Source of the DNA: Vicinamibacterales bacterium
Lineage (GTDB): Bacteria > Acidobacteriota > Vicinamibacteria > Vicinamibacterales > 2-12-FULL-66-21
Reading direction: 5' to 3'
Assembly: GCA_035699745.1 (NCBI GenBank)
Contig: DASSPH010000066.1
Span: 1 to 64,000 of the forward strand
Length of the DNA stretch: 64,000 nt
The translations under genes and the position numbers were made by a program. Under the pieces are notes generated by a model. It made no database searches. It was given only the letters and a program-made list of their open reading frames with translations, and was not told the DNA's origin. This document shows positions 5,852-57,915 of the stretch, one piece after another (positions within the stretch are counted from its first letter, which is position 1; each line of letters starts with the position of its first letter).

Positions 5852-5852
5852 C

Positions 5853-5930
5853 CGATCGCCCGATCACCCGATCACCCGATCACCCGATCACCCGATCGCC
5901 CGATCGCCCGATCGCCCGATCGCCCGATCA
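5853..5930. repeat. 8-bp tandem repeat CGATCRCC, about 9.75 copies
   Basis: Nine complete units plus six bases. The order is one G-type unit (CGATCGCC), four A-type units (CGATCACC), four G-type units, then CGATCA. It fills the space between two convergent genes, and its last three bases are the stop codon of the cupin gene. A related CGATCCCC-type repeat is at 35598-35623. Confidence 0.93.
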
Positions 5931-16955: not shown

Positions 16956-18287
16956 ATGAGAGTGTTGCACAGGCTCGCCCTCGCCGCATGTCTGCTGGCC
17001 GCGGCGGTCGCGACCGGCAGAGCGCAGCGCCCGGTCGACGCCCGGAAATACGATCTGCTCCTGAGGGGCGGGCACGTGATCGACGGCCGCAACCGCCTCA
17101 GCGCGGTTCGCGACGTCGCGATCGCGGATGGGAAGATCGCGGCGGTCGCCGCCGGCATCGATCCGGCGCTGGCGCTGAAAGTGGTCGACGCGTCGGGCCT
17201 CTACGTGACCCCCGGCCTGATCGACCTGCACGTTCACGTCTACGCCGGCACCGGCGAGCGCGCCTCTTACGCCGGCGACAACAGCGTCTATCCGGACGGA
17301 TTCAGTTTCCGCAGCGGCGTGACGACGGTCGTGGACGCCGGCTGCGCCGGCTGGCGCACCTTCGACGATTTCAGACAGCGGATCATCGATCGGTCGAAAA
17401 CCCGCGTCCTCGCCTTCCTCAATATCGTCGGCAACGGCATGCGCGGCGGGAAGTTCGAGCAGGACCTCGCCGACATGGAGGTGAAGCCCACGGCCGACAT
17501 GGCGCTGCGGCACAAGGGCCTGATCGTGGGGATCAAGACGGCGCACTTCGCCGGCCCGGAGTGGGCGCCGGTCGAACGCGCCGTCGCCGCCGGGACGATC
17601 GCGAACGTTCCCGTCATGGTCGACTTCGGCACCAATCGCGCCGAGCGTCCGCTCAGTGAGCTGGTCACGAAGAAGCTCCGGCCCGGCGACATCTACACGC
17701 ACCTCTATTCGGGGCTGCGCGACGAACAGCTCCCCTCCGGCCAGGTGAACCCGGCGCTGTTCGAGGGGCGCAGGCGCGGCGTCGTCTTCGACGTCGGGCA
17801 CGGCGGCGGCAGCTTCCTGTGGCGCATCGCCGTTCCCGCAGTGAAGGCCGGCTTCCTGCCCGATTCCATCTCCACCGATCTCCACATCGGCAGCATGAAC
17901 GCCGGCATGAAGGACCTCCTCAACGTGATGGACAAGTTCCTCGCGATGGGACTGCCGCTGGACGACGCGGTGCTGCGCGCCACCTGGAATCCCGCGAAAC
18001 AGATCGGCCGCGAGGACCTCGGGCACCTCTCGCCCGGAGCCGCCGCCGACGTCGCCGTGCTGCGGCTCGAGAAAGGACGCTTCGGCTTCGTCGATATGTA
18101 TGGGGCGCGGATGGACGGGACGCAGAGGCTCACGAACGAGCTGACGCTGCGGGACGGACGAGTCGTCTACGACTTGAACGGGATCACGCGGCCGGACTGG
18201 AAGACGCTGCCGGGCGATTACCGCCAGACCGGCGACGCCCGGTGGGACGCTGTGACGCCGGCGCCGCGGCGCCCGGGCGGGAGGTAA
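16956..18287 (+). CDS. Exported amidohydrolase/deacetylase-family metallohydrolase
   Basis: 443 residues with a signal peptide (RLALAACLLAAAVATGRAQ). Binuclear amidohydrolase landmarks: HVHV after GLIDL (HxH), the carbamylation-type lysine in VGIKTAHFAG, His in IYTHLYSG and FDVGHGGGSF, and Asp in SISTDLHIG. It resembles the EF_0837/AHA_3915 group, which neighbours SelA-like PLP enzymes in several genomes. That is the arrangement here, with a four-base gap after the PLP gene. It probably deacylates or opens a substrate that the PLP enzyme then processes; this is inference. Confidence 0.85.
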   Translation: MRVLHRLALAACLLAAAVATGRAQRPVDARKYDLLLRGGHVIDGRNRLSAVRDVAIADGKIAAVAAGIDPALALKVVDASGLYVTPGLIDLHVHVYAGTGERASYAGDNSVYPDGFSFRSGVTTVVDAGCAGWRTFDDFRQRIIDRSKTRVLAFLNIVGNGMRGGKFEQDLADMEVKPTADMALRHKGLIVGIKTAHFAGPEWAPVERAVAAGTIANVPVMVDFGTNRAERPLSELVTKKLRPGDIYTHLYSGLRDEQLPSGQVNPALFEGRRRGVVFDVGHGGGSFLWRIAVPAVKAGFLPDSISTDLHIGSMNAGMKDLLNVMDKFLAMGLPLDDAVLRATWNPAKQIGREDLGHLSPGAAADVAVLRLEKGRFGFVDMYGARMDGTQRLTNELTLRDGRVVYDLNGITRPDWKTLPGDYRQTGDARWDAVTPAPRRPGGR

Positions 18288-18290
18288 CGG

Positions 18291-18330
18291 AGGGGGACGG
18301 AGGGGGACGGAGGGGGACGGAGGGGGACGG
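18291..18330. repeat. 10-bp tandem repeat with G5 tracts (G-quadruplex-prone)
   Basis: Four perfect units of AGGGGGACGG lie immediately after the amidohydrolase stop codon. This gives four G5 tracts spaced by five bases on the plus strand, a strong match to a G-quadruplex pattern. Degenerate GGAGGGAAC units continue to 18380 into the hairpin. Confidence 0.9.
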
Positions 18331-18351
18331 AGGGAACGGTTTTCGACACGG

Positions 18352-18433
18352 AGGAACGGAGGGAACGGAGGGAAACGGAGCCAGGAGAGTTTTTCAGATT
18401 TCGCTCCGGTTCCCTCCGTTCCCTCCGTTGCTC
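18352..18433. terminator. Long imperfect hairpin between convergent genes
   Basis: A purine-rich arm (18352-18381) pairs with a pyrimidine-rich arm (18403-18433) over about 30 bases with two mismatches. The loop is ~21 bases and contains TTTTT. It sits between the convergent amidohydrolase and DUF1080 genes, so it may end transcription from both sides. No flanking T-tract follows the stem. Confidence 0.55.
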
Positions 18434-18476
18434 CGTTCTAGAGACCGTTCCCTCCGTCCCCTCCGTTAACTCCGTT

Positions 18477-19325
18477 CTACTCGGCGAGCTTCAGCTCTCG
18501 AATCCAGACATTGCGGAAGCGCACCGGGTTGCCGTGGTCCTGCAGCCCGATATACCCCTTGGCGTTCGACGGCGCGTACGGTGGAATCTGACGATGCGCG
18601 GTGGGGCCCCAGAACGCCTGATTCGAGTGGACCACGACGCCGTTGTGCAGCACCGTCACCATCGCAGGCTTCTCCAGCTTGTCGCCGTTGAAGCGCGGTG
18701 AGGTGAAGGCGATATCGTATGACTGCCATTCGCCCGGCGGCCGCGACGCGTTCACCATCGGCGGAAACTGGCCGTACATCGCCGACGCCTGGCCGTCCGC
18801 ATACGACTTGTTCTCGTAGCTGTCGAGCACCTGGATCTCGAACACGCCGTTCAGGAACACGCCGCTGTTGCCGCGTCCCTGGCTGTTGCCTCGCACTTCG
18901 GACGGCGTGGCGAACTCGACGTGCAGCTGGTAGTCGGTGAAGTCGTCGCGCCTGGTCCGGATCATGCCCTTGCCGCTCGAGAGCACGCCGCTCGCGTCGA
19001 TCGGCCAGCTGACCGGGCCGCCGCCCTGCGTCATCTGCCACTTGCTCAGATCGTTGTTGGCGCCGAGCAGGACGATCGCGTCCGCCGGCGGCGGCAGTGA
19101 CACGAACGGGCCCGGCTTCACGACCACCGGCCGCGGGCGATCGTCGTCGTGGACGAGCCACTTGCCATCCGGCTGCTTCGGCGTGTCCTTGTAGCCGGTG
19201 GGCGCCGGCGCCGGCGGCTTGGCCGGTCCGGCCGGCGGATTCTGCGGCGCCTGCACCTGCGTCATCACCCTGACGCCGAACAGCGCCGCGAGCAGGCACG
19301 CGGCGAACGTCGTCTGCTTTCTCAT
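18477..19325 (-). CDS. Exported DUF1080 protein (3-keto-glycoside hydrolase/lyase family), second copy
   Basis: 282 residues with a signal peptide (MRKQTTFAACLLAALFG). After a Pro-rich linker the DUF1080 concanavalin-like domain shows ADAIVLLGANNDLSKWQM, DYQLHVEFATPSE, GRGNSGVFLNGVFEIQVLDSY (split as GNSGVFLNG and FEIQVLDS), and GYIGLQDHGNPVRFRNVWIREL at the end. Members of this family cleave 3-keto-glycosides made by Gfo/Idh/MocA-type dehydrogenases. The ATG overlaps the stop of the upstream DUF1080 gene (ATGA). Confidence 0.87.
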   Translation of the reverse strand: MRKQTTFAACLLAALFGVRVMTQVQAPQNPPAGPAKPPAPAPTGYKDTPKQPDGKWLVHDDDRPRPVVVKPGPFVSLPPPADAIVLLGANNDLSKWQMTQGGGPVSWPIDASGVLSSGKGMIRTRRDDFTDYQLHVEFATPSEVRGNSQGRGNSGVFLNGVFEIQVLDSYENKSYADGQASAMYGQFPPMVNASRPPGEWQSYDIAFTSPRFNGDKLEKPAMVTVLHNGVVVHSNQAFWGPTAHRQIPPYAPSNAKGYIGLQDHGNPVRFRNVWIRELKLAE

Positions 19326-21678: not shown

Positions 21679-21780
21679 CGCTCCGGGCACAAAGGTCACG
21701 AAGATCACAAAGATCACGAAGAAGACCAGTAGGTCTTCTTCGTGGTCTTTGTGATCTTCGTGGTCTTTGTGCCGGAGCGT
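21679..21780. terminator. Perfect-length long hairpin built from 9-bp repeats
   Basis: Two ~49-base arms (21679-21727 and 21731-21780) pair with one bulge and about three mismatches around a 3-base loop. Each arm is itself periodic, made of units like GATCACAAA and GGTCACGAA. It lies between the convergent oxidoreductase and permease genes. It could terminate transcription from both directions or be a processed RNA hairpin. Confidence 0.65.
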
Positions 21781-55771: not shown

Positions 55772-55975
55772 CCGCAGGGGACTCGCTTCGCTCGCTGTCG
55801 GGCAGCGTGGAAGGGGACTCGCTGCGCTCGCTGTCGGGCAGAGACAGGGTCAGTCGCTTCGCTCCCTGTCGGGCAGCGTGGAAGGGGCCTCGCGGCGCTC
55901 GGCGTCGGGCAGAGTGGAAGCGGCCTCGCTGCGCTCGCTGTCGGGCAGGGACAGCGACGAGTCGCTTCGCTCCTT
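55772..55975. repeat. Array of ~35-bp degenerate repeats (left, minus orientation)
   Basis: Five to six units built on CTCGCTGCGCTCGCTGTCGG GCAG (shown in two pieces) with alternating linkers of the GTGGAAGGGGC and GACAGGG types. On the minus strand the unit reads CCCGACAGCGAGCGCAGCGAG. It begins 24 bases beyond the four-helix-bundle gene's stop and extends toward the transporter start. The same unit occurs in opposite orientation at 57455-57915. Confidence 0.9.
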
Positions 55976-55999
55976 TATCGCGCGAGGAGCTGGGTGAAC

Positions 56000-56467
56000 T
56001 CACTCGTCCGGCGACTGGAAACCGGCGTTGCGCGGGCGGCGGGCGGCAACGGTTCCGGAGGCTCGTCGCTTCGCTTGTTTCTCCGCCTCTTCCCGTCGGA
56101 TCTGGGCGAGCTTCGCCGCGAGAAGACCGCCGGTCAGCTTCATCGCTGAGTCCGCGAGTTTGCATGCCCTCGTGAACTCTGCTTCGGTCCAGTACTTTCG
56201 GTGAAACCCGCGGCGCAGGTGGTTCGTCGTTTCCCCGAGCGACGCGCGTGCGATTCGGTAGTAATTCGCCGATTCTCTGGGTTTGAATCGCAGGAAGCCT
56301 TCGGCGATCTGTGCGGGCGCCTTGGCCGACGATTTGAGGATCTGCTCGCGGAAACTCTCGTTGCGCGCAGCACCGCCAGTCGACGTCAGGTCGTCCACGA
56401 GATCGGCCAATTCGTCCGCAAACTGCCACGCGATGAGATCTTCGTACCGGGTGATTTTTGGCTGCAT
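56000..56467 (-). CDS. Four-helix-bundle protein (23S rRNA-intervening-sequence protein family)
   Basis: 155 residues starting MQPKITRYEDLIAWQFADEL, the usual opening of the S23/IVP four-helix-bundle family. SFREQILKSSAKAPAQIAEGF, then ESANYYRIARASLGETTNHL, complete the family pattern. A charged basic tail (RREEAEKQAKRRASG) follows. Members are named after proteins in 23S rRNA intervening sequences, but stand-alone copies like this are common and of unknown function. It is divergent from the TIM-barrel gene, and its 3' end abuts a repeat array. Confidence 0.87.
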   Translation of the reverse strand: MQPKITRYEDLIAWQFADELADLVDDLTSTGGAARNESFREQILKSSAKAPAQIAEGFLRFKPRESANYYRIARASLGETTNHLRRGFHRKYWTEAEFTRACKLADSAMKLTGGLLAAKLAQIRREEAEKQAKRRASGTVAARRPRNAGFQSPDE

Positions 56468-56580
56468 GCCGGCCGCGTGGCATAGCGCGTGCCGTCCCAC
56501 CGGAGCGGCGCTCGTCACCCTTCCAACGACGCGGTGCCGGGTCCGGCGCGACCGTCCCGAAGCGAGGCACCCGCCGGGCA

Positions 56581-56586
56581 TATAAT
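56581..56586 (+). promoter_or_regulatory. Consensus TATAAT -10 box directly before the TIM-barrel gene
   Basis: A perfect TATAAT lies 9 bases before the ATG at 56596 (6 before a GTG at 56593). Transcription would start within about three bases of the start codon, i.e. leaderless or nearly so. No good -35 is seen. Confidence 0.5.
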
Positions 56587-56595
56587 CGCGGCGTG

Positions 56596-57441
56596 ATGAA
56601 GAGAACTGCGGCGACGTTGGTGCTGGTGGCCGTCGGCTTATCGCTCGCGGGGGCGCAGACGTCCGGGGGAAAAGTCGCGGTCGGCTATTGCACAGGGCTG
56701 GCGAACCTCGAGGCGGCCAAGGCCGCCGGGTTCGACTACGTGGAGGTCTCGGCGACCGAGATCGCCAATCTCTCGGACGCGGATTTCGACGCCGCGGCGG
56801 CGAAGATCAAGACGATCGGGATTCCGACGCCGGCCGCAAACCTGTTCGTGCCCGCAGCGATCAAGCTGACCGGCCCGGAGATCAATGTCGAGCAACAGAA
56901 CGCGCACGTGCGCAAGGCGCTGACGCGGCTCGCGAGGCTCGGCACTCAGGTCGTGGTGTTCGGCAGCGGCGGCGCGCGCCGCGTGCCCGACGGGTTTTCC
57001 AGGGAGGAAGCCTTCAAGCAGCTCGTCGATTTCGGCCGGCGCGCCGCGGAAGAAGGACGCGCCAACGGCATCACGATCACCATCGAGCCGCTGCGGAAGC
57101 AGGAAACGAACATCATCAACACGGCCGGCGAGGGACTGGCGCTGGTCGAGGCGATCAACCACCCGAACTTCCAGTTGATGATCGACTTCTACCACCTCGC
57201 GAGCGAACAGGAAGACCCGGCGATCGTCCTGCGGGCGAAGGATCGCCTGCGCCACCTGCACGTCGCCAATCCGAAGGACCGCGTGTTTCCCGCAACCTGG
57301 GAGGAGTACGACTACGCGCCGTTCTTCGCCAATCTGAAGAAGATCGGCTACGACAAGCGGATCAGCGTCGAAGGACGAACGACCGATCTCGCCGCACAGG
57401 GCCCGCCGGCGATCGCACTGCTGCGCCGCGCCTTCCAGTAA
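56596..57441 (+). CDS. Exported sugar phosphate isomerase/epimerase-like TIM-barrel protein
   Basis: 281 residues with a signal peptide (KRTAATLVLVAVGLSLAGAQ). Xylose-isomerase-like TIM barrel: LEAAKAAGFDYVEVSATEI, VVVFGSGGARRVPDG, ITITIEPLRKQETNIINTAGE (split as ITIEPLRKQETNI), LMIDFYHLASE, HLHVANPKDR and RISVEGRT. The metal ligands E (IEP), D (IDFYH), H (HLHVA) and E (VEGR) are in place. Exported members of this family often sit in 3-keto-sugar or polyol pathways. The substrate is unknown. Confidence 0.86.
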   Translation: MKRTAATLVLVAVGLSLAGAQTSGGKVAVGYCTGLANLEAAKAAGFDYVEVSATEIANLSDADFDAAAAKIKTIGIPTPAANLFVPAAIKLTGPEINVEQQNAHVRKALTRLARLGTQVVVFGSGGARRVPDGFSREEAFKQLVDFGRRAAEEGRANGITITIEPLRKQETNIINTAGEGLALVEAINHPNFQLMIDFYHLASEQEDPAIVLRAKDRLRHLHVANPKDRVFPATWEEYDYAPFFANLKKIGYDKRISVEGRTTDLAAQGPPAIALLRRAFQ

Positions 57442-57454
57442 CTGACCCCACCCA

Positions 57455-57915
57455 AGGCGAGCGGAGCAGGCCGTCTTCCACCCGGCCTGACAGGGAGGCG
57501 AAGCGAGTGTCGCTGCCCGACAGGGAGCGCAGCGACCCGCCTTCCACGCTGCCCGACGGCGAGCGCAGCGAGCGCCCCTTCCACCCTGCCCGACCGCGAG
57601 CGAAGCGAGTGTCCCGTCCCTGCCCGACAGGGAGCGAAGCGACCCTCCTTCCACCCGGCCCGACGGCGAGCGCAGCGAGCGCCCCTTCCACCCTGCCCGA
57701 CAGCGAGCGCAGCGAGTGTCCCCGTCCCTGCCCGACAGCGAGCGAAGCGAGTGTCCCTGTCCCGGCCCGACGGCGAGCGAAGCGAGTGTCCCCGTCCCTG
57801 CCCGACAGCGAGCGCAGCGAAGCCCCTTCCACCCTGCCCGACACGGAGCGAAGCGACCCCCCTTCCACCCGGCCCGACAGCGAGCGAAGCGAGTGTCCCC
57901 GTCCCGGCCCGACCC
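57455..57915. repeat. Array of ~35-bp degenerate repeats (right, plus orientation), 12 units
   Basis: Twelve units with the core CCCGACAGCGAGCGAAGCGA G and one of two linkers, TGTCCCCGTCCCTG-like or CCCCTTCCACCCTG-like, about 34-37 bp each, preceded by one degenerate unit. It begins 13 bases after the TIM-barrel stop and fills most of the 549-base gap to the DUF4142 gene. The remaining ~75 bases show only a GGAGG ribosome binding site. Unit order alternates irregularly between the two linker types. Confidence 0.92.

Follow-up and report, generated by a model that had tools for sequence, protein, structure and literature searches.

PF05635 genes between inverted tandem arrays: a candidate repeat-armed insertion element in Acidobacteriota and other bacteria

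Two repeat arrays are considered here, and it is probable, at a rough estimate of 0.65, that they form the inverted arms at the two ends of an insertion element. A gene of the PF05635 family would be the constant feature of this element. The arrays lie in a 64,000-nucleotide stretch of a Vicinamibacterales genome, referred to throughout as the window. The four-helix-bundle gene is a recurring partner of inverted arrays, a point absent from the preliminary description of this DNA, and PF05635 genes of Acidobacteriota, Cyanobacteriota, Bacteroidota and further bacterial groups are found in this arrangement too, the repeat differing from one case to the next. The repeat-armed PF05635 element is apparently both widespread and undescribed; no published account of PF05635 together with arrays was found in the open-access literature. 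In its minimal form the proposed element would consist of a G-rich tandem array, a PF05635 open reading frame and the inverse C-rich array, placed between genes and commonly starting at a stop codon; the copy in the window (approximately 55776-57913) would additionally carry a putative TIM-barrel gene.

Arrays and genes of the window

The window contig is part of a 6.3 Mb genome in 110 contigs. Its two tandem arrays are in opposite orientation and point outward; the spacing from one copy to the next is mostly 35-37 bp. The left arm (55776-55972, C-rich unit on the minus strand) holds five intact core units and one degenerate unit, and the right arm (57456-57913, plus strand) 11 intact core units together with degenerate ones. 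The left array lies 24 nt past the stop of the PF05635 gene (56000) and the right array 13 nt past that of the putative TIM-barrel gene (57441). The preliminary description had placed inverted arrays after the stops of two divergent genes; the arrangement is real, with distances to the stops as it gave them, and 'divergent' is correct for this pair, the PF05635 gene being on the minus strand and the TIM-barrel gene on the plus strand. Its view that a single repeat family is present in inverted orientation is borne out by the longest inverted alignment of the two arrays (126 nt, 85% complementary); exact inverted matches between them reach 27 nt at most. Two classes of linker, CCTTCCACC and TGTCCCYGTCCC, do occur as it described, but they do not strictly alternate: the right array runs A A B A A B B B A A B. 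This is a higher-order repeat of 107 bp built on AAB, a pattern expected from tandem duplication.

The PF05635/TIGR02436 gene (23S rRNA IVP-like, four helix bundle protein; 56000-56467, minus strand) encodes 155 amino acids and exceeds the curated cut-offs of the two profiles (62.8 bits vs 33.8 and 48.8 vs 24, respectively). Its product is 52% identical to a paralogue on contig C94 of the same genome, and no close relatives were found in the genome contigs searched. The putative TIM-barrel gene (56596-57441, plus strand) owes its fold assignment to the preliminary description; its product has no Pfam, NCBIfam or PDB-sequence match. It is probably extra cargo, because homologues in relatives are found with no PF05635 gene nearby. 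Alternatively, its position within the arrays may reflect two neighbouring array insertions. The right arm is approximately 990 bp from the PF05635 start, as against the usual 200 bp or less, and this counts against the proposed element.

PF05635 genes between inverted arrays

The minimal form of the element is seen on C94, where a PF05635 gene stands directly between two arrays of the window family. Five further PF05635 genes of the window's genome are also located between inverted arrays, whose units are unrelated: GCAGTGCG on C78, GGGTTCTAC on C61, GATTGGC on C73, GATTCGG on C29 and GATCGGGT on C12. The gene on C104 is the only one in this genome that lacks arms. In a sample of 60 loci from Acidobacteriota and other genomes, with 300 bp searched on each side, inverted arms scoring at least 20 were present in 32, compared with 4 of 700 random placements; the count ignores kinship, the thresholds were set by us and the random placements include non-intergenic positions. 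The remaining 28 loci fall below this score, several of them at background, which also counts against the element. The arms are tandemly repeated, each locus having its own unit, mostly of 7-9 bp and most commonly of period 7. Two loci (L073 and L200) have array units of ~36 bp on both sides, resembling the window's unit in length and unlike the heptamers.

A replicate was drawn from Bacteroidota, as relatives of one genome picked before looking and with kinship not factored in; arms scoring at least 15 were present in 10 of 25 loci, compared with none of 52 displaced windows, and 5 of the 25 reached the threshold of 20. When each locus is oriented by its gene, the upstream arm is G-rich in 26 of the 32 armed loci of the first sample and in all 10 of the second. 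This polarity bears on the suggestion of a phase switch, in which the inverted arrays recombine and the PF05635 and TIM-barrel genes between them are turned round. The 126 nt of inverted homology at 85% would be in its favour, but an exact match of only 27 nt is not, and frequent flipping would randomise a gene-arm polarity that is fixed to the extent just given (26/32 and 10/10). We consider such a switch highly improbable.

Dispersed copies and their placement

Arrays also occur without the gene. A DNA search of the window's genome with the arms of five PF05635 genes gave 20 dispersed sites for the C73 unit, 12 for the C78 unit, six for the C61 unit and one for the C29 unit. Both orientations are present at 16 dispersed sites; the G-rich arm is on the left in all 16, and the PF05635 gene is absent from 14. 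The window itself contains an inverted pair at 18287-18477 (unstranded; ACGGAGGG left, CCCTCCGT right), which starts at a TAA and has neighbours that look like convergent genes; this pair has no PF05635 gene, and nor does an inverted pair of short arrays at 21688-21771 (unstranded; GATCACAAA/TTTGTGATC type, unit of 9-18 bp). A single CCGATCAC array (5852-5929, plus strand) follows a TAA and resembles the C12 arm unit, GATCGGGT. Arrays that lack the gene are most simply understood as non-autonomous derivatives.

A pattern of two tandem units of the window family has 53 matches in the genome, none when read backwards as a control and none in 59 relatives, all of them from other genera. The family occupies 13 sites and is essentially all intergenic, by gene calls from a simple codon model, the exception being the last core of the right C94 array, which overlaps the predicted end of selA. 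Five of the 13 sites are cut by contig ends, and eight others besides the window were assessed for stops. The preliminary description had looked to a genome-wide search for consistent placement at gene ends, and this is what was found: at all eight untruncated sites, the window not being counted, a neighbouring gene has its stop ~25 nt or less from an outer array edge. The genes concerned encode, by Pfam, an aldo-keto reductase, RNase E/G, a sulfatase, a DndB-like protein, a DUF6454 protein, glutamate dehydrogenase and a TonB-type receptor; the eighth is an unnamed gene on C45. The idea that each array would be transcribed as a sense 3' tail does not extend beyond the window as a general rule, since the unit is antisense to the stop-adjacent gene at all eight of these edges. 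Paired arrays that share one site point outward (C32, C35, C66, which is the window contig, C94 and, mostly, C67). At the window's own site the outer array edges face the 5' ends of an MFS and a DUF4142 gene and both stops face inner edges; the sense orientation there follows from both genes lying inside the element, with arrays pointing outward. A tRNA-Leu gene (L040, 357-440) was also observed between outward-pointing arrays of the window family, adjoined by a CT-rich repeat.

Filled and empty sites

PF05635 genes on plasmids are mainly from Cyanobacteriota, and arms scoring at least 14.5 were present in 10 of 15 plasmid loci. In Nostoc edaphicum a PF05635 gene with TAGGGAG arms is located between nrdB and nrdA; other plasmid PF05635 genes separate cas10 from cmr3 and cas6 from cas4. 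The same neighbours are found without the segment in Calothrix NIES-4105, Picosynechococcus PCC 7002, Pseudanabaena ABRG5-3 and Dolichospermum UHCC 0315A. Filled and empty sites in relatives, as expected of a mobile element, are present at four cyanobacterial sites. No empty site was found for the window's own element because in relatives the TIM-barrel gene is not syntenic with the MFS or DUF4142 genes. In several cases (the cas10 TGA, the cas6 TGA of Anabaena sp. 90 and the nrdA TAA) the segment starts at a stop codon or a few nucleotides from it, and the stop can form part of the first array unit. Comparison of filled with empty cyanobacterial sites gave no clear case of a target-site duplication; none can be read because the short intergenic target differs between the two. 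Deletion could be an alternative cause of the empty sites, and no transposition event or excised form was seen, which again counts against the element.

Another explanation is that the PF05635 gene and its arrays are immobile and that the arms act in RNA, as processing or terminating stems, in the manner of 23S rRNA intervening sequences (IVS). It is favoured by the fact that in IVS a PF05635-family open reading frame is bracketed by inverted repeats and RNase III cuts these elements (PMC4990558), and by the RNA of the Nostoc element, for which a single long arm-to-arm stem is predicted (z -7.1). However, empty sites in relatives and dispersed gene-less pairs require spread or loss. Furthermore, no known RNA gene family, whether rRNA or another, occurs in any of 20 scanned PF05635 loci, and neither they nor the window have an Rfam match that would place them inside an rRNA gene, as for IVS. 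We regard this explanation as unlikely.

The core and its hairpin

The window's unit contains an 11-nt core, GAGCGNAGCGA (for example at 57525-57535, plus strand), the flanking bases of which covary (C..G or G..C). In the window's genome the closing bases are C..G in 46 copies, G..C in 39 and others in five, so that 85 of 90 are paired, compared with about 49% expected from column make-up; because the copies share ancestry, this count cannot be turned into a probability. The covarying pair suggests, from comparison of sequences, a hairpin cap in the window's unit. The DNA sequence d(GCGNAGC) forms an unusually stable mini-hairpin. A model X-GA-GC-GNA-GC-GA-Y, in which a GNA loop would be closed by two G-C pairs, tandem G.A pairs and the covarying pair, fits the core. 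Among 252 copies from outside the window's genome, 68% have a Watson-Crick first closing pair and 60% a Watson-Crick second one, compared with 37% and 35% in a shuffled control, and the reversed core, also a control, has no closing-pair excess. The core recurs in Acidobacteriota with unrelated complementary arms (CATCCT/AGGATC and CATTCT/AGAATC) and in Halorientalis with the complementary arms TCCGAAAACC/GGTTTTCGGA. In folding programs the core hairpin scores strongly only with long outer arms, and units from the window show no better folding than shuffled versions of themselves. No published description of the core as a repeat was found in the open-access literature.

These features might be taken to indicate intergenic palindromes of the ordinary REP/BIME type, placed downstream of genes and acting on termination or mRNA stability, beside which a PF05635 gene is a coincidental neighbour. 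The arrays are indeed intergenic and stop-adjacent, much as known REPs follow genes and in some cases lie no more than 15 nt from a stop, and the closing pair of the core hairpin covaries (85/90). Against this, two separate samples show the PF05635 association at a level far exceeding background, and most PF05635 arms are short-unit arrays that lack the window's palindrome. The full core is also beside none of the three Y1 transposase (RAYT-type, PF01797) genes of the genome, and a RAYT has no support as array partner. We judge coincidence quite improbable.

The core is a separate matter from the PF05635 gene in general: a general link between them was rejected, with four cores in 90.7 kb around 30 PF05635 genes from core-rich genomes being about the genome-density expectation. 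One genome (G294), with 181 cores compared with 23 controls, has two same-core hairpin repeats ~90 bp apart in opposite orientation (L231, 1493-1604); their arms differ (ATTCC/GGAAT and ATCTC/GAGAT) and both are complementary. The core is shared by GTCATCCTGAGCGNAGCGAAGGATC-type repeats in Acidobacteriota genomes (L125, L126, L129, L130 and L132), for which no published description was found in the open-access literature.

How the element might spread

We infer that the element is mobile and that the PF05635 protein has a role in this. The arms would pair in single-stranded DNA or in RNA, giving a long stem with the open reading frame in the loop, and the protein would bind the paired-arm stem or the repeats. 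A binding role is guessed in preference to an enzymatic one because the family's solved member (2gsc), a homopentamer built of four-helix bundles, has no known function (PMC4990558). The element was not found to have a nuclease, integrase or reverse transcriptase of its own, and copies might be spread by replication or repair enzymes of the host. Arrays would afterwards grow and homogenise by slippage and conversion, which is proposed to be why each locus has its own unit with arms that are still complementary; units of the window family would each carry a GCGNAGC hairpin cap. That the arms are complementary with locus-specific sequence implies that what is maintained is arm pairing, or copying between arms, and not the sequence; this agrees with a long stem that has the reading frame in its loop, the fold predicted for the Nostoc RNA. 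A broader reading, offered tentatively and at slightly less than even odds, is that these elements constitute an undescribed and widespread mobile class. A non-catalytic four-helix-bundle protein would be the sole factor that they encode, insertion would favour stop codons, and each copy would make or adopt a heptamer-type unit of its own, kept complementary in its two arms.

Relation to known systems

PF05635 is a common family with no assigned function, hitherto met mainly as odd insertions in 23S rRNA, and it now gains a likely element context. Two old questions become testable, namely how rRNA intervening sequences move and why 7-bp tandem arrays are abundant. If the new mobile class is real, part of the scattered heptamer and 35-37 bp arrays of bacteria would be explained.

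The resemblance to 23S rRNA IVS encoding S23p (PF05635) lies in an open reading frame of the same family and in the inverted repeats on either side of it, which pair to give a long stem. In contrast, IVS are located in rRNA helices and have simple inverted repeats, whereas PF05635 elements occur between protein genes, have tandem-array arms and exist as gene-less copies. With REPINs/BIMEs and their RAYTs the elements share a pattern of few gene-bearing copies and many gene-less inverted intergenic pairs near stops, and the window's unit is likewise a dispersed, intergenic palindromic unit; it has no GTAG end, and TGTC, a listed variant of CGTC, is beside the short stem. The element protein, however, is a four-helix bundle and not a Y1 (HUH) transposase, and the arms are tandem arrays of locus-specific units.

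Heptamer arrays are reported from Xanthomonas (GGGAATC, with 70 and 75 inverted pairs; PMC4692102), Nostoc (GGGGA(T/C)T) and Beggiatoaceae (TAACTGA). These are also 7-bp arrays in intergenic DNA; unlike the present case, the text searched in those papers makes no mention of four-helix-bundle or S23 genes. Xanthomonas does encode a PF05635-like protein (2gsc). The element offers a possible source for such unexplained heptamer arrays of bacteria, and we predict that those of Xanthomonas, Nostoc and Beggiatoaceae will prove to be linked to PF05635.
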